Shown piece after piece: positions 42,681-54,853 of a DNA stretch of 64,000 nt; within the stretch, counting starts at the first letter, position 1, and each line of letters starts with the position of its first letter. The notes beneath the pieces were generated by a model. That model saw only the letters and a program-made list of their open reading frames with translations, made no database searches and had not been told where the DNA came from. A program made the translations under genes and the position numbers. The stretch covers positions 1 through 64,000 of the forward strand of contig CAINFC010000148.1 of NCBI GenBank assembly GCA_903847975.1, read 5' to 3'. Source of the DNA: an uncultured Acidobacteriota bacterium (GTDB taxonomy: Bacteria; Acidobacteriota; UBA6911; CAINFC01).

Positions 42681-42845
42681 CGACTGCCTCCCGCTTATCG
42701 ATTGGAAAAACAGGATTTCAGGTGAAAGTAGACTCCGATGTAAGAAAAGTATATCATGGAAGCATCGGAAGTAATAAGTTCAGAATAAATACGAATTCAA
42801 AATGAACTTTGACTTCGGTTGGGTAAGGAAAGAAGTTTATCCGCC

Positions 42846-45464
42846 ATGCCTGACCTTGCATCAGCGGGCTGCGGCTCAGACAGCCTTCCTCCGGGCACAC
42901 GGCTGGAAACCTATCTCATACTCCGCACGCTGGGAGCGGGAGGGATGGGGGTGGTGTATCTGGCCCAGGACACCCGGCTGGGGCGTGAAGTAGCCATCAA
43001 GGTGCTTCCCGAAACCTCGGACCGCGACCTCACGCAGCGGGCGCGATTCGAAAGAGAAGCCCGGATGCTTGCCTCCCTGAATCATCCCAACATCGGGGCC
43101 ATCTACGATCTGCATCCGATGGAGGGGGGTGAGTTCCTGGTCCTCGAGTACGTCCCGGGCGAAACGCTTGCCCAGCGGATTCACGCCGGTCCCCCCTCAT
43201 GGAAGGAGGCAGCGGGCGCTGCGCAGCAGATCGCCGGTGCACTGGAAGCCGCCCATGCCAAGGGCATTATCCATCGCGACCTGAAGCCCGGTAATATCAT
43301 GATTACCCCCGAAGGGATCGTGAAGGTGCTGGATTTCGGTCTGGCCAAAAGCCTGGTGCCCGCCTCCGCAGATACCTGTTCCATGGACTCCCAAACCATC
43401 GAACATCTGGAAACGGTTCCGGGAACGATTCTCGGAACTCCGACTTATATGAGTCCGGAGCAGGCCCGAGGCATGAATGTCGACCATCGCAGCGATATCT
43501 GGGCTTTCGGATGCGTGCTCTTTGAAATGCTTACCGGGAAAAAAGCCTTTGACGGAAAAACCGCAACCGACCGGATCGCTGCTGTAATTACCCGAGACCC
43601 TGACTGGGACATCCTGCCCCGGGAAATTCCCCGCTCCATCAGGGAACTCCTCCGGCGATGCCTGGAGAAAGAGACCGCCCGGCGGCTCGATGATATACGT
43701 TCCGCCCGGGAAATTCTGCACGCGGCATTCACCGAAGCGGATTCCGGATCGGGACAGGGCCGATTCTCCCGGCTCCCGGCGCGCCGGCTCGCCGCCGCGG
43801 GGCTGGGATTGGCCCTGCTGGTCCTGCTTGCCGCCGCATGGCTGTTTTGGAAATCGGAACCAACCTCCCTGGCCATTATTCCCGATAAGAAGTTTCTACT
43901 GGTACTTCCCTTCAAGGATCTGAGCAGCAAAGCGGCCGACTCGCTGCTCGGGGACGGGATGGCCGAGGTTCTGAGCGCACGCCTGTCGCAGCTTCAGGAC
44001 ATCCAGATTGTCATGCCGGGCATAGCCGTGTTTGCCGCCCGGAATCTTGACCCTTTCCGCATCGCCCGGGATGTGGGTGCCAATCTTCTGCTGGACGGGT
44101 CGGTGCAGCGCAGCGGCGAGCAGGTGCGGGTCACGTTTTCCCTCTGGAACCGCGTCCTGCGCAGAAAAATCGCCGGCCGCACCCTGGATGGACCGGCGGC
44201 CGATTTATTCGGCGTCCAGGACCGCCTGGCGGAGGAGGTCGTCCTGGCAATGCGCCTGTCTTTCGGTCCAGCGGACGTGCGGCGAAAACCGTCCGGCCTG
44301 GAAACGGCGGACGAGCAGGAGCGGTACCTCGCTGCCCTGGGGCGATTGCAGCGCTCCGACCGGGAGGCATTTCTTGATGAGGCGGTTGCGGTTCTTGGGG
44401 AACTGAGCCGGCAGAGGCCTGCGGCACCTTTGGTGTGGGCGGCGCTCGGCAGGGGATATCTCCAGAAATTCAAGCTCACCCGCGACCGGAAATGGATCCA
44501 GCTGGCCGACTCCGCCTGCGCCCGGGCCCGTCAACTGGATCCCGATTTTCCCGAGGTGGAGGTGACCGTCGGCGAGATGCGCCTGGCTTCCGGGCAAACA
44601 GAGGCGGCAATCGCCGCGTTTCAGCACGCCCTGTCGATTCAGCCTGCTCATTACCAGGCCATACTGGGTCTGGCCTCCGCCTATAGTTCGGCCGGCCGGG
44701 TGCGGGAGGCGGAATCCGCCTTCCAGAGGGCCATTGGCCTGCAGCCGGATCACTGGACGGGGTACAGCCGCCTGGCCGGCTTTTACTATAACCGGGGAAA
44801 TTACACGCGCGCGGCAGAGATGTTTCGCAAGGTAACCGAACTGACTCCTGACAATGCCATGGCGTTTGCCAATCTCGGTTCCACAGAACAGGTGACCGGG
44901 GACTTCGAACGCGCCCTGCAGTCGCTGAAAAAATCCCTGGCCCTCCAACCCACGGCTCGGGCCTATTCCAACCTCGGAACCATCGAGTTTTACCGGGGCC
45001 ATTTCCAGGAGGCGGTGGACGCCTTCGAGTCCGCAGTCCGGCTGGCACCGGATCACTTTGAAATGTGGGCCAATCTGGCGGACGGGTACCGTTGGGCTCC
45101 GGGACTGCAGGGCAAGGCGAAAGAAGCATTCTCCAAGTCAGCCGCCCTTTGCCGGAGTGAGTTGACGATCAATCCGAAATCGGCCCTGGCCCACTCCGTT
45201 TTTTCCCTTTGCCTGGCCAAAACCGGCCAACGGGAGGAAGCGGTACTGCATACACAGGAAGCCCTGTCGATTGCCCGGACCCCGAACCTGCTCTACAACG
45301 CGGCGATCGTGGCCCACCTGGCCCAGCAGCCCAGAGAGGCCATGGAGTGGCTGGTGCTGGCGGTGCAGAGCGGATATCCCCGGATTTATATTTCCCGGGA
45401 TCCGGAGCTTTTCCTCCTGAAAGGCAATCCCCTGTTCCAGGAACTGGTCCGGGAAAAGAAATAA
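42846..45464 (+). CDS. Ser/Thr protein kinase with membrane helix, TolB-like domain and TPRs
   Basis: 872 residues from ATG at 42846 (a TTG frame reaches 42819; neither has an ideal ribosome-binding site). Kinase domain at about 22-295: glycine loop LGAGGMGVV, Lys52 in VAIK, catalytic HRDLKPGN (Asp145) and DFG (163-165). One membrane helix (about 316-335) follows, then a TolB/FlgO-like domain (about 349-470: LLVLPFKDLSSKAADSLLGD, LLLDGSVQRSGEQVRVT) and about eight TPR units (500-870). Complete Hanks-type active site. This architecture is frequent in Acidobacteriota. Divergent from the FGE-like operon. Confidence 0.92.
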   Translation: MPDLASAGCGSDSLPPGTRLETYLILRTLGAGGMGVVYLAQDTRLGREVAIKVLPETSDRDLTQRARFEREARMLASLNHPNIGAIYDLHPMEGGEFLVLEYVPGETLAQRIHAGPPSWKEAAGAAQQIAGALEAAHAKGIIHRDLKPGNIMITPEGIVKVLDFGLAKSLVPASADTCSMDSQTIEHLETVPGTILGTPTYMSPEQARGMNVDHRSDIWAFGCVLFEMLTGKKAFDGKTATDRIAAVITRDPDWDILPREIPRSIRELLRRCLEKETARRLDDIRSAREILHAAFTEADSGSGQGRFSRLPARRLAAAGLGLALLVLLAAAWLFWKSEPTSLAIIPDKKFLLVLPFKDLSSKAADSLLGDGMAEVLSARLSQLQDIQIVMPGIAVFAARNLDPFRIARDVGANLLLDGSVQRSGEQVRVTFSLWNRVLRRKIAGRTLDGPAADLFGVQDRLAEEVVLAMRLSFGPADVRRKPSGLETADEQERYLAALGRLQRSDREAFLDEAVAVLGELSRQRPAAPLVWAALGRGYLQKFKLTRDRKWIQLADSACARARQLDPDFPEVEVTVGEMRLASGQTEAAIAAFQHALSIQPAHYQAILGLASAYSSAGRVREAESAFQRAIGLQPDHWTGYSRLAGFYYNRGNYTRAAEMFRKVTELTPDNAMAFANLGSTEQVTGDFERALQSLKKSLALQPTARAYSNLGTIEFYRGHFQEAVDAFESAVRLAPDHFEMWANLADGYRWAPGLQGKAKEAFSKSAALCRSELTINPKSALAHSVFSLCLAKTGQREEAVLHTQEALSIARTPNLLYNAAIVAHLAQQPREAMEWLVLAVQSGYPRIYISRDPELFLLKGNPLFQELVREKK

Positions 45465-49125: not shown

Positions 49126-49647
49126 GTGACGCAGAATCGCAAATACAAATTTTCATGGGAATTGCTGGGGGACATTCGGGCCGGGCGGCCCCATCTCGGA
49201 AACCAGACGCGCCTGGAAGTCTATCGCCTGATGCAGTTCGCCTTCCGGGATGTCCTCGAGGAGCGCTTCGGCCATCAGGAAACCGATCGTATTTTTTATG
49301 AGGCCGGGGCCCTGGCGGGACGCGAGTTTTACGCGAACGTCCTGCAGCCCTCCGGCGATCTGAACGATTTTATAAGGCAGGTGCAGGAAGCCCTGAAAGA
49401 GCTCGGAATCGGCATCCTGCGCGTGGAAAAAACCGATATGGAAAAGGGGGAAATCATCCTTTCCATTGCCGAGGACCTGGACTGCTCGGGACTCCCGGAT
49501 CTGGACTTCGAATTCTGCACCTTCGACGAGGGATTTATCGCCTCTCTTCTGGAATGCTTTTCGGGTAAAAAATTCAAGGTCCGCGAAATAGACTGCTGGT
49601 GTACCGGTGACCGCACCTGTCGCTTTCGGGCCAATCGGATCGAGTGA
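49126..49647 (+). CDS. V4R-domain ligand-sensing protein
   Basis: 173 residues. The start is GTG with AAGGAG six bases upstream. A V4R (4-vinyl reductase type) domain covers most of the protein: FYEAGALAGREF, LGIGILRVEKTDMEKGEIIL, and the typical closing motif DCWCTGDRTCRF with three cysteines. V4R domains bind small hydrophobic or aromatic ligands and are often coupled to regulators. The diguanylate cyclase starts 7 bases after the stop, so the V4R protein is the likely sensor of that pair. Confidence 0.85.
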   Translation: MTQNRKYKFSWELLGDIRAGRPHLGNQTRLEVYRLMQFAFRDVLEERFGHQETDRIFYEAGALAGREFYANVLQPSGDLNDFIRQVQEALKELGIGILRVEKTDMEKGEIILSIAEDLDCSGLPDLDFEFCTFDEGFIASLLECFSGKKFKVREIDCWCTGDRTCRFRANRIE

Positions 49648-49654
49648 CGGCCCC

Positions 49655-50563
49655 ATGTCCCCGTCTTCCTCTCCGGATGCCGAATTGCTGGACCTGGCTA
49701 TCCGCAGCCTGAAGGAGCTGGTGAACTCGCGGGAGGCGCCGGCGAATCCATCGCGGGAGTTGTTGGCCATTCAGGAATTTGCCGAACTATACGCCGCGCT
49801 GCTGGAGGTACGGAATTCCGTCATGGCCACCGCCGCCGGCGACCTTACCTACCCCGTTCAGCGCAAGGGCTACCTGCCGGGGGCCATCAAGGGATTGCAG
49901 GCCTCCTTGCGCCATCTCACCTGGCAGACCAAAGCCATTGCTTCGGGAGATTTTTCGCAGACCGTGGATTTTATGGGCGATTTCTCCGAGGCCTTCAACA
50001 GCATGGTGCGGCAGCTGGCCGAAACCATCCAGCGGCTGCACCAGCGGGAAAAGCAGCTGCAGGAGATGGCCCGCACCGATCCGCTGACCGGGGCCGGCAA
50101 TCGCGGCTATTTCATGGAACGGCTGCAGGTGGAAGTGGAGCGGTCCCGCCGTTATGGGCACACGCTATCCGTGATCATGATGGACCTGGACCACTTCAAA
50201 TCGGTGAACGACACCCGGGGGCATGCCGCGGGCGACGAAGCCCTGCGGACGCTGACCGCCGTGCTCCGCGGTTCCCTGAAGCGGCAAAGCGATTTCTGGG
50301 GCCGCATCGGCGGAGAGGAGTTTGCGGCCGGCCTTCCGGAAATCACGCTCTCCCAGGCCAGCATGGTCGCGGAGCGGGTCCGCCTGCGACTGGCGGAAAC
50401 CCCGATATCTTTCGGCAGCGAGGTCTTTTTTATTACCGGGAGCTTCGGAGTCTGCGAATTCCAAAGAGGGGACGACCAGGAAGCCATCCTGCACCGCGCC
50501 GATCAGGCCCTCTACCGGGCCAAGCAGGCCGGCCGGAACCGCGTCTGCCCCGCAGAACCCTAG
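49655..50563 (+). CDS. Diguanylate cyclase (GGDEF), cytoplasmic
   Basis: 302 residues from ATG at 49655. The N-terminal ~125 residues look like paired HAMP-like helices without membrane segments (GDLTYPVQRKGYLPGAIKG, SGDFSQTVDFMGDFSEAF). GGDEF domain at about 140-300: DPLTGAGNRGYF, MMDLDHFKSVND, GHAAGDEAL, catalytic GGEEF (219-223), and an inhibitory I-site RQSD (210-213) at the correct five-residue spacing. It therefore makes c-di-GMP and is probably product-inhibited. It lies in a tight operon between the V4R sensor and the TopoIII-RecQ gene. Confidence 0.95.
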   Translation: MSPSSSPDAELLDLAIRSLKELVNSREAPANPSRELLAIQEFAELYAALLEVRNSVMATAAGDLTYPVQRKGYLPGAIKGLQASLRHLTWQTKAIASGDFSQTVDFMGDFSEAFNSMVRQLAETIQRLHQREKQLQEMARTDPLTGAGNRGYFMERLQVEVERSRRYGHTLSVIMMDLDHFKSVNDTRGHAAGDEALRTLTAVLRGSLKRQSDFWGRIGGEEFAAGLPEITLSQASMVAERVRLRLAETPISFGSEVFFITGSFGVCEFQRGDDQEAILHRADQALYRAKQAGRNRVCPAEP

Positions 50564-50572
50564 CTGGCGGTT

Positions 50573-53500
50573 ATGAAACCGAAAGCAGGAGCCGCCGAGA
50601 GACCGCACCCCGCCCCGGGGAAATCTCCTCCGGAAGCGATAGAAACTCCCCAAGGGATCCTGGCGGTGGTGGCCGAAAAGCCCTCTGTCGCCCGCGATAT
50701 TGCCCGGGTACTCGGAGCCACCCAATCCCGGGAAGGATTCCTGGAGGGAGGAGGCTGGAGGGTCACCTGGGGCATCGGCCACCTGGTCGGACTGGCACAG
50801 CCCCATGAAATCAACCCTGCCTGGCGACAGTGGAAATACGACCTGCTTCCCATGTTTCCCCGCGAATGGCCTCTGGTAGTACTGGCCGAAACGCAGAGCC
50901 AATTCGAGGTTGTCCGTAAAATCATCAACGCGCCGGACGTCGGCCGCGTGGTCTGCGCTACCGATGCCGGGAGGGAAGGAGAGCTGATTTTCCGCCAGAT
51001 CTATGAAGCTTCGGGGTGCCGGAAGCCGGTCAGCCGGCTCTGGATTTCCTCTCTGACCCCGGAGGCCATCCGCCGCGGCTTCCGCGAATTGCGGCCGGCC
51101 TCCGACTGGGACCGGCTGGCAGACGCCGCCCGGGGGCGAAGCCGGGCCGACTGGCTGGTGGGCATGAACCTTTCCCGGGGCTACGCCCTGAGCCTGAAGG
51201 AGGACCTGTCGGTAGGCCGGGTACAGACACCGACTCTGGCCATGGTAGTCGAGAGGGAGCTGGCCATCCGGTCGTTCGTCCCGCAGGATTTTCTGCAGGT
51301 GGTCGCTCTCTTCGAGGCACCGCCCAGGGAAGGGGTCGGAGCCCGGGATGCGGAAACGAACTCCTATGAGGGCACGTGGTTCCGGCCCGGGGGGAAAGAA
51401 GCGGCCCCCCCCGCCGCCGAGGAGGGCGGCAGCCGGGAAGAGAACCGGGAAAGCCTGCAGCAGTCCATGCGCCTGCCCGCCGACGGAATCGAAGCCGCGG
51501 AAATTCGGGATCGCGCCCTGGCCGGAAGCGCGGCCGTGGACCGGCTGACCCGGGAAACACGCCGCCTGCACCCGCCGCTGCTCTACGATCTGACGGAGCT
51601 GCAGCGGACTGCCAACCGGATCTACGGCTTCAGCGCCCAGAAGACCCTCGACCTCGCCCAGGCTCTCTATGAAAGGCACAAGCTGATCAGCTACCCCCGT
51701 ACCGACAGCCGCCACCTGTCCACCGATGTGGCCCGCACTTTGCCTCGCATTGTGGAGAACATCCGCCGGCCCTACGAAGCGCATCTGGCGCCGGATACGG
51801 GCAGCCGGCCGCTCGGTCCGCGGTTTGTGGACGATGCCGGGGTCACCGATCATCATGCTATTATCCCGACCGAAGCCGGCCGTACCGGCTGCCGGCTGAC
51901 GGGCGAGGAGGAGAAAATCTACGACCTGGTCTGCCGGCGGTTGCTGGCCGCCTGGCACGCCGATTCGGTCAGTTCGGTGACCACGGTGATAACCGTGGTC
52001 ACTACGGCGCCATCCGCCCGCTCCGGAGAAATCCGCGACTACTACCATACCTCCGGAACCCAGGTTCTGCAGCTCGGCTGGAAGGAACTGGAATTGGAGT
52101 TCGAGCGGAAGAAGGCGCGAGGGAAAAGCTCTTCCGAAGCGGAAGGCTCTCCGATGGCCCGGGAAGAGGAAGCGCCTTTGCCGCCCTGGCTGGAGCCCGG
52201 TCTCCCGGTCCGCGTCCGCGAGGCCGAGATTCTGAAAAAAACCACCCGCCCCCCGAAGCGCTTTACGGAAGCCACTCTGCTGACCGCCATGGAAACCGCC
52301 GGACGCACCCTGGAGGAAAAGGAGCTATCGGAAGCCATGAAGGAGTGCGGCCTGGGAACGCCGGCCACCCGGGCCGCCATCATCGAGATCCTGCTCAAGC
52401 GGGCTTATATCGAGCGGCAGGGGAAAAACCTGCAGGCCACGGAAAAAGGAATACGGCTGATCCAGGCCGTCCACCCGGAAGTGAAAAGCCCGGCGATGAC
52501 CGGGCAATGGGAAGCGTATCTGAAGCGGATCGAAAAGGGAAAGGCGGATCTGATACCTTTTCTGCAGGGAATTGAACGCTTCGTACGGGAGGTTATCGGC
52601 AAGATAGCGGGCGGGGCGGCTGAGCCGGAACCGGCAAGACCGGCTGCGGGGCCGGCGAAAAAGGAAGCGGCAGAAACTTCTCCTCCGGCCTCGGCAACGC
52701 CGCCCGAGGCTTCCCTGCCGCTGTTCCGCAGACTGGCCTCGGCCGGACCGCAGGGCCCAAACGTTGCTCCCGGGGAAAATCCTTTCCATGCCGCCCTGCA
52801 CCGCATTTTCGGATTTCGATCCTTTCGCCCCAACCAGGAGGAAATCTGCCGCGCCGCCGTGGAAGGCCGGGACGTCCTGGTGGTCATGCCCACCGGCTCG
52901 GGAAAATCGCTCTGCTACCAGCTTCCTGGACTGATGCGCGGCGGACTGACCCTGGTGATCAGCCCGCTGATTGCCCTGATGGAGGACCAGGCCGGCCAGC
53001 TGCAGACCCGAGGGCTGGCAGTGGAGCGCATCCACTCCGGACGCAGCCGGCAGGACCAGCGTCAGGCTTCCCGGATGTATCTCGACGGCAGGCTCGACTT
53101 CCTTTTCATCGCTCCGGAGCGATTCCGGGTGCCCGGCTTTTCCGAAATGCTGGCCCGTCGCAAGCCGGTGCTGATCGCCATCGACGAAGCCCATTGCATT
53201 TCGCAGTGGGGGCACGATTTCCGGCCGGATTACCGTATGCTCAAACAGCACCTCCCCCTGCTGCGGCCGGCGCCGGTGATTGCCTTGACGGCCACCGCCA
53301 CCCCGCTGGTCCAGGACGATATCGCCGACCAGCTGGGGCTCCATAGCCCGCTTCGCTCCATTCATGGATTCCGGCGGGACAACATTGCCATCGAGGCCGT
53401 GGAGGCCCCCCCCTCTTCGCGACACAGCCTGGCCCGCAAGTGGCTGTCCGCCGCGGAAAACCGCCCGGCCATCGTCTACGTTCCCACCCGCAAGCATGCC

Positions 53501-54853
53501 GAAAAGCTGGCTTCCGAGCTGGAGTCCTTTTTCCCCGCCGCGCCCTATCACGCCGGGATGGACAGCGAATCGAGGGACCGCGTGCAGTCCGCCTTCCTCC
53601 GCGACGAAATCCAGGTGATCGCCGCCACCATCGCTTTCGGCATGGGCATCGACAAGCCCAACGTGCGCTCGGTGATTCACACCGCCATGCCCGGCAGCGT
53701 GGAGGGCTATTACCAGGAGATCGGCCGCGCCGGACGGGACGGCCTTCCCGCGCGGGCCATCCTGATGCACTCGTATGCCGACCGCTACACCCACGAATTT
53801 TTTTTTGAGAGGGATTACCCCGAGGCGGTGGCCATCGCCCGCCTTTATGACCAGCTTCCCGCTCAGCCGGAGAAGCGGGAGGAGCTGCGCCGCGGTTCAC
53901 GGCTCGATCCGGAAACGTTCGACAAGATGCTGGAGAAGCTCTGGATCCACGGGGGAGCCCTGGCGGACGCCGAGGACCAGGTGAGCCGTGGCAGCCCCTC
54001 CTGGTCGGAGTCCTACCGGCAGCAGCGGGAGCACAAGAAGGCGCAGATGGAACAGATGCAGCGCCTCGCCGACGGAAAGCAGTGCCGCATGGCCAGCCTG
54101 GTGCGCTACTTCGGCGACCGGGAAGACCTGCGCGAGTCCTGCGGCATCTGCGACATCTGCGCTCCGCGCAGCGGCGCGGCGCGGCGCTTCCGGCCGGCCG
54201 ACGAAGCGGAGCGTATGGAGGCACTTCACATACTCGCCGGCCTTCGCCTGGCCACGGGCGGGATAGCCGTCTCCCGGCTGTTCGGCAGCATGGCCGGCCG
54301 GGTCTCTTCGGACCGCAAGCATTTCGAGCGCCTCCTGGATGCCATGAGTCAGGCCGGCCTGGTGGAATTCCAGCAGGCCGTTTTTCAGAAGGAGGGCCGG
54401 GACATCGAATACCGTAAGGTCCGCCTGTGCCGTGGCGCTTGGGAGAAGGCCGCTTCCGGCCAATTCGACCTGCAGCTGGCGGAGGAAATTCATGCCGAGG
54501 CGAAAAAAAGCAAGGCCCGCCCGCGAAAGGCTTCTCCGCCGAAACCGGCCGCCCGTCTGCAGCCCAAGCCGGTTCGCCGGAAAAAGGCGGAGGACGTCCC
54601 CCCGGAGGAACCCCTGCGAAAGCCGCCGCCGCCGATCATTCCCGCTCTTCGGGAAGCCCTGCGATTCTGGAGACTGGCAGAAGCCAAACGGAAAAGGGTT
54701 CCGCCTTTCCATATCATGAGCGACCGGACGCTGGACGCCCTGGCTTCTTTCTGCCCCAAAACCCGGGCGGAGCTGGTGGCCACCCCGGGAATCGGACCGC
54801 GGACCGAAGAAAAATACGGTTCCCCTCTGCTGCAGATCCTCCGCCAGTTCTGA
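50573..54853 (+). CDS. Topoisomerase III-RecQ helicase fusion
   Basis: 1426 residues in one frame. Residues 28-680 are a type IA topoisomerase: EKPSVARDI (35-43), TOPRIM acidic motif ATDAGREGE (129-137), VGRVQTPTL, catalytic Tyr374 in SYPRTDS, DHHAIIPTE, and GLGTPATRAAIIE. A Pro/Ala-rich linker (680-735) leads to a complete RecQ: motif 0 FRSFRPNQEE, Walker A GSGKS (775-779), DEAHCISQWGHD (871-882), GRAGRDG (1051-1057), zinc cysteines 1171/1190/1193/1196, winged-helix region, a Lys/Pro-rich linker and an HRDC domain (1357-1426). RecQ-TopoIII pairs decatenate DNA and dissolve double Holliday junctions; here both activities are covalently linked. It begins 9 bases after the cyclase stop. Confidence 0.95.
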   Translation: MKPKAGAAERPHPAPGKSPPEAIETPQGILAVVAEKPSVARDIARVLGATQSREGFLEGGGWRVTWGIGHLVGLAQPHEINPAWRQWKYDLLPMFPREWPLVVLAETQSQFEVVRKIINAPDVGRVVCATDAGREGELIFRQIYEASGCRKPVSRLWISSLTPEAIRRGFRELRPASDWDRLADAARGRSRADWLVGMNLSRGYALSLKEDLSVGRVQTPTLAMVVERELAIRSFVPQDFLQVVALFEAPPREGVGARDAETNSYEGTWFRPGGKEAAPPAAEEGGSREENRESLQQSMRLPADGIEAAEIRDRALAGSAAVDRLTRETRRLHPPLLYDLTELQRTANRIYGFSAQKTLDLAQALYERHKLISYPRTDSRHLSTDVARTLPRIVENIRRPYEAHLAPDTGSRPLGPRFVDDAGVTDHHAIIPTEAGRTGCRLTGEEEKIYDLVCRRLLAAWHADSVSSVTTVITVVTTAPSARSGEIRDYYHTSGTQVLQLGWKELELEFERKKARGKSSSEAEGSPMAREEEAPLPPWLEPGLPVRVREAEILKKTTRPPKRFTEATLLTAMETAGRTLEEKELSEAMKECGLGTPATRAAIIEILLKRAYIERQGKNLQATEKGIRLIQAVHPEVKSPAMTGQWEAYLKRIEKGKADLIPFLQGIERFVREVIGKIAGGAAEPEPARPAAGPAKKEAAETSPPASATPPEASLPLFRRLASAGPQGPNVAPGENPFHAALHRIFGFRSFRPNQEEICRAAVEGRDVLVVMPTGSGKSLCYQLPGLMRGGLTLVISPLIALMEDQAGQLQTRGLAVERIHSGRSRQDQRQASRMYLDGRLDFLFIAPERFRVPGFSEMLARRKPVLIAIDEAHCISQWGHDFRPDYRMLKQHLPLLRPAPVIALTATATPLVQDDIADQLGLHSPLRSIHGFRRDNIAIEAVEAPPSSRHSLARKWLSAAENRPAIVYVPTRKHAEKLASELESFFPAAPYHAGMDSESRDRVQSAFLRDEIQVIAATIAFGMGIDKPNVRSVIHTAMPGSVEGYYQEIGRAGRDGLPARAILMHSYADRYTHEFFFERDYPEAVAIARLYDQLPAQPEKREELRRGSRLDPETFDKMLEKLWIHGGALADAEDQVSRGSPSWSESYRQQREHKKAQMEQMQRLADGKQCRMASLVRYFGDREDLRESCGICDICAPRSGAARRFRPADEAERMEALHILAGLRLATGGIAVSRLFGSMAGRVSSDRKHFERLLDAMSQAGLVEFQQAVFQKEGRDIEYRKVRLCRGAWEKAASGQFDLQLAEEIHAEAKKSKARPRKASPPKPAARLQPKPVRRKKAEDVPPEEPLRKPPPPIIPALREALRFWRLAEAKRKRVPPFHIMSDRTLDALASFCPKTRAELVATPGIGPRTEEKYGSPLLQILRQF

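Follow-up and report, generated by a model that had tools for sequence, protein, structure and literature searches.

A bacterial protein joining topoisomerase III to RecQ helicase in one chain is probably a tethered dissolvasome

Introduction

Do topoisomerase III (Topo III) and RecQ helicase, whose complexes are established for eukaryotes, also occur as one natural bacterial protein, and what would such a protein do? The question is raised by a gene in a stretch of 64,000 nucleotides (hereafter the window; positions 1 to 64,000 of the forward strand of contig CAINFC010000148.1, assembly GCA_903847975.1) from an uncultured Acidobacteriota bacterium. An earlier note on this DNA had read the gene, at 50573..54853 on the + strand, as a topoisomerase and a RecQ helicase fused in one 1426-residue protein, called it a covalent dissolvasome, and left it open whether such a fusion was known in this lineage. 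As a working pair, bacterial RecQ and Topo III are contested, and engineered yeast Top3-Sgs1 fusion proteins were reportedly studied by Bennett and Wang in 2001 (cited in PMC3905885). We found no description of a natural Topo III-RecQ fusion in the open-access literature, a body of work outside which most subscription papers lie; automatic database annotations may exist. We show here that the covalent fusion is real and conserved. What is new is a natural bacterial single-chain form of an already known partnership.

Results

The reading of the gene as a single protein is borne out by one open frame of 1426 codons, which runs from an ATG to a TGA without an internal stop, and by the complete domains that Pfam and NCBIfam recognize in it. 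In the N-terminal half, Pfam matched Toprim (residues 32-160) and Topoisom_bac (residues 181-664; 1.5e-102), and in the C-terminal half DEAD (752-910), Helicase_C (957-1057), RecQ_Zn_bind (1146-1196) and HRDC (1358-1423; 6.5e-16), an order confirming that the topoisomerase precedes the helicase. Among the matches listed, NCBIfam has no model for the topoisomerase-RecQ combination.

A sequencing or assembly error that joined neighbouring topB and recQ genes could produce such a frame, and the splitting of the window genome (an 8.1 Mb assembly) over 326 contigs speaks for that possibility. However, the junction is likewise in frame in many separate genomes; the G+C content by codon position is coding-like across the junction of the window gene, linker included; and a genome search found no separate topB or recQ gene in the window genome. 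In the assembled sequence, the frame is open through residues 680-735, the interval in which the earlier note had placed a possible stop or frameshift. As independent fusions exist, the artefact reading is already refuted, and we give it practically no credence. We also rejected an internal translation start yielding a separate RecQ, as no start is conserved across the fusions; from residue 676 up to Walker A, the window gene offers a single in-frame start codon, a GTG near residue 766 (counted on the stop-to-stop frame), which lies within the helicase core.

The N-terminal half scores over the NCBIfam cut-offs for DNA topoisomerase 3 (PRK07726; topB, TIGR01056). Its AlphaFold2 (AF2) model (predicted local distance difference test, pLDDT, 81) is a type IA toroid, with the body at residues 181-664 (51113..52564, +), and the best Foldseek matches of this model are E. 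coli Topo III (1i7d, TMt 0.83), placing it with the Topo III type and not with Topo I. Tyr374, named in the earlier note as the active-site tyrosine, lies in a YPR(T/S) motif (LISYPRTDSR; codon at 51692..51694, +); the alignment of the fusions and a survey of the YPR motif found the tyrosine kept in all fused sequences that cover the site (16/16). The further claim that the topoisomerase has its TOPRIM acids holds only in part: the TOPRIM domain (residues 29-160; 50657..51052, +), delimited by Pfam Toprim and by alignment to E. coli Topo III, contains E35 and, in the motif DAGREGE (D131-A-G133-R-E135), D131 and E135, but the second Asp of the DxD magnesium motif is replaced by Gly133, which aligns with D105 of E. 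coli Topo III. As DAGREGE is common, in a motif survey, to all fusions covering the motif and to most stand-alone TopBs of the branch, including that of Listeria, the DxG form appears to be a subfamily trait relative to E. coli and not a defect of the window copy. The fusion thus shares with bacterial Topo III (TopB; E. coli 1i7d/1d6m) the four-domain toroid, the Tyr nucleophile, the TOPRIM domain and the domain order, whereas it differs in the DxG motif, in leaving the end of the TopB profile unmatched (4-600 of 669), and in bearing RecQ at its C-terminus. About residues 270-306, the probable place of the decatenation loop, form a variable, low-confidence segment whose length differs widely among the fusions.

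The C-terminal half exceeds the recQ_fam cut-off of NCBIfam (TIGR00614) and stays under that of the strict RecQ equivalog (490 of 640 bits); the closest structures to its AF2 model (pLDDT 87) are the catalytic cores of RecQ and BLM. All the elements that the earlier note had assigned to it were recovered by Pfam and in alignments: a helicase core, also seen in the model (residues 737-1072; 52781..53788, +), with Walker A K778, DEAH at 871-874 and motif VI arginines R1052/R1055; a RecQ zinc-binding domain (residues 1146-1196; 54008..54160, +) with C1171, C1190, C1193 and C1196; and an HRDC domain (residues 1358-1423; 54644..54841, +). Like Tyr374, these catalytic and zinc-binding residues are conserved at all the sites that the aligned sequences of the other fusions cover. 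An RQC-like winged-helix region is predicted from the helix/strand pattern of the model at about residues 1211-1303 (54203..54481, +), where there is no Pfam RQC match.

With bacterial RecQ (E. coli 1oyw) the fusion shares the RecA-like core motifs, DEAH, the zinc cysteines and HRDC; unlike it, the fusion has a topoisomerase ahead of RecQ and an insert between motif VI and the zinc domain, which are 113 residues apart compared with 48 in E. coli-type RecQ (about 65 extra). This insert (about residues 1085-1140; 53825..53992, +), located from motif spacing and the model, is a hallmark of the RecQ subfamily and is predicted to fold as a small winged-helix-like unit; a match to the SelB wing (E=0.0084) falls short of the cut-off. 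Since stand-alone relatives carry the insert as well (motif VI-zinc spacing 110-135 vs. 48), it either arose before the fusion or has no connection with it. A linker (about residues 681-736; 52613..52780, +), of low confidence or disordered in the AF2 model, joins the two halves. Counted across the fusions from residue 676 as far as Walker A, the aligned stretch measures 57-246 amino acids and lacks any conserved sequence; so long and variable a linker suggests simple tethering.

A search for proteins with both domain sets, with their taxonomy mapped, answers the question of whether the fusion is known in this lineage: the fusion recurs in Acidobacteriota as a family that appears to have arisen once, and it is found also in Myxococcota and Bdellovibrionota bins. 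Besides the window, 16 one-frame fusions of the same layout were found, contig-truncated copies counted, in Acidobacteriota, in Myxococcota metagenome-assembled genomes (MAGs) and in one Bdellovibrionales; some of the host bacteria are from soil and water. Complete one-frame fusions occur in Acidobacteria/Bryobacterales (L004, L005, L006, L012, L017; all L-labelled carriers are MAGs), where L012 is a shorter relative with a stop-to-stop frame of 1311 aa. Outside Acidobacteriota, complete copies lie in bins assigned to Myxococcales (L007) and Bdellovibrionales (L009); copies cut off by contig ends come from Acidobacteria/Bryobacterales (L010, L011) and Myxococcaceae bins (L008, L013), and five more carriers belong to the window's own phylum (G042, G057, G116, G224, G203). 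The fusion is present in 1 of 38 genomes of the window's class and in 6 of 199 genomes of an even sample of its phylum. An RpoB tree, in which the placements of G042 and L010 were not counted, groups the window genome with Acidobacteria (100/100). The Bdellovibrionales case looks real, because the base composition of the fusion matches that of its flanks and of its bin's rpoB; misbinning of the Myxococcaceae pieces is possible, because they lie on 3-4 kb contigs with a G+C content above that of the rpoB loci of their bins. Records covering both halves were found neither among phages in INPHARED and IMG/VR nor, among the matches listed, among plasmids in PLSDB.

Fifteen of 16 fusion genomes have only two type IA topoisomerases, TopA and the fusion (in this count the fused gene was matched in two pieces in G203 and G066); the exception is a Myxococcales bin (G063) with extra TopBs. 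A zinc-domain search found the fused RecQ zinc domain to be the only one in 11 of the 16. The fused protein is therefore usually the whole Topo III supply of its host, and often its RecQ supply.

In the tree of topoisomerase sequences, the halves taken from fusions all group in a single clade (100/99) that includes no stand-alone TopB. The RecQ halves, by contrast, share one subfamily with stand-alone RecQs (those of Acidobacteriaceae and of family f18, f52, f65 and L015); monophyly of the fused RecQs is rejected (approximately unbiased test, p 1.8e-5), and the tree requires no fewer than four changes of state. Given a single clade of topoisomerase halves and stand-alone RecQs nested among fused ones, the simplest reading is that there was probably one fusion event, after which the topoisomerase half was lost several times, the change at the deepest branch (f52) being compatible with either direction; the genes may also have passed laterally from one phylum to another. 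Next to the stand-alone recQ relatives, no remnant of TopB was found.

Six stand-alone RecQs of Acidobacteriaceae type (L014, L016, L018, L020, L021, L163) are nested within the fused clade, and their genomes show no TopB half among the matches listed, which suggests that these hosts lost Topo III after fission or deletion. A relative from the window's class (G005; L161, G005:C79; L087) carries a RecQ from this subfamily, but its match to the window protein spans two stop codons, with a longest open stretch of 578 codons; this RecQ is possibly decayed or truncated.

A comparison of neighbourhoods found no conserved operon partner beside the fusions. In other phyla, topB and recQ are themselves neighbours: they adjoin in Listeria, 24 bases apart and with recQ first (L164:2983-6932), the opposite order to that of the fusion, and in Bacteroidales topB, a RecJ-like gene (named by eye from its sequence) and recQ stand in a row in one direction (L022:8019-14721, L023:7995-14609). 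These independent neighbourhoods suggest a shared task for the two enzymes.

Directly upstream of the window fusion, a GGDEF (diguanylate cyclase) gene (49607..50563, +) ends 9 bases before the fusion ATG; it is not conserved beside other fusions and is not part of the enzyme. A V4R-domain gene (49126-49647) overlaps the GGDEF gene, and transcriptional coupling is possible. Further away, a Ser/Thr protein kinase with TPR repeats (42819-45464) is 52% identical to a gene adjoining the G224 fusion (L157); we rejected it as a shared neighbour, as it looks like a member of a common paralogous family.

Discussion

We consider it likely that the gene encodes a natural single-chain Topo III-RecQ enzyme, a dissolvasome whose two halves are tethered through a disordered linker that varies in length. 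The "covalent" part of that earlier description stands on the single frame; the "dissolvasome" part we keep as the best reading, in which we infer from sequence the activities, the substrates (double Holliday junctions among them) and the role of tethering. The eukaryotic dissolvasome (BLM/Sgs1-Top3-Rmi1) uses the identical pair of enzyme families, but as separate chains together with RMI1/RMI2, whereas the fusion unites them in one chain. Pfam finds no RMI-like domain in that chain, and no search of the genome for an RMI1-type partner was made. The engineered Top3-Sgs1 proteins likewise join Topo III covalently to a RecQ helicase; they are man-made and were built in yeast, while the fusion is natural and bacterial.

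In the mechanism we propose, the 3'-5' RecQ motor would unwind or branch-migrate joint DNA (double Holliday junctions, converging forks, precatenanes) and thereby expose single strands for Topo III; the tethered Topo III would open one strand via Tyr374 and pass another through the gate, and strand passage would continue until the two duplexes separate. The flexible linker would keep the halves at 1:1 and at high local concentration, and might in this way replace the protein-protein contacts and the RMI1 of the eukaryotic complex.

Several observations weigh against this proposal. The statement of the earlier note that RecQ and Topo III are known partners is sound for eukaryotes but disputed for E. 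coli: a 2020 review devotes a section to the missing evidence for an E. coli RecQ-Topo III "toposome" (PMC7140829), and a 2026 genetic study in E. coli denies RecQ-Topo III cooperation and pairs Topo III with RecG (PMC13244152). Another review, on the other side, states that Topo III of E. coli is able to form a complex with RecQ (PMC8191776), and, according to references cited in two of these papers (PMC13244152, PMC7140829), RecQ stimulates catenation by Topo III in vitro. In the protein itself, one TOPRIM Asp is replaced by Gly, although many stand-alone TopBs are alike in this, and the putative decatenation-loop region is variable and, in the window protein, not basic. Finally, the topoisomerase half appears to have been lost several times while RecQ was retained, so the halves are separable. 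Such losses, the unconserved linker of very variable length and the genetic separation of RecQ from Topo III in E. coli would equally suit a fusion of convenience, in which both halves are active but independent (with Topo III acting on precatenanes or R-loops and RecQ acting at ends and gaps) and linkage only ensures co-expression. We regard this as improbable, because several Acidobacteriota families have retained the fusion, which also turns up in other phyla, and because the independent topB-recQ neighbourhoods elsewhere suggest a shared task.

A machine like reverse gyrase, in which the motor would impose a direction on strand passage and control DNA supercoiling, has a precedent in reverse gyrase itself (PMC3905885), which also combines an SF2 helicase and a type IA topoisomerase, and hence both activity classes, in one chain. 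We think this very unlikely for the fusion. In reverse gyrase the helicase comes first and is not a RecQ, as the earlier note had correctly remarked, whereas here the topoisomerase comes first, is of the Topo III type, and is followed by a genuine RecQ that has both zinc and HRDC domains; the NCBIfam rgy profile reaches 96.6 of 471.7 bits, far under its cut-off; and where reverse gyrase couples its halves by a rigid latch, the fusion has its long disordered linker.

The tethered Topo III-RecQ enzyme thus bears on a pairing that is contested in bacteria: a fusion that has been retained across bacterial lineages, and that usually supplies its hosts with their sole Topo III and often with their sole RecQ too, is independent evidence for that pairing outside E. 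coli, and it makes the disputed question of the RecQ-Topo III toposome testable. The fusion also places both activities, at a fixed 1:1 ratio, in a single chain whose point mutants would allow tests of dissolution, of strand passage and of what tethering contributes. We see roughly even chances that this family, serving whole lineages in that capacity, dissolves joint DNA by tethering without RMI; if true, single-chain dissolution without an RMI subunit would show that the bacterial RecQ-Topo III toposome is real.

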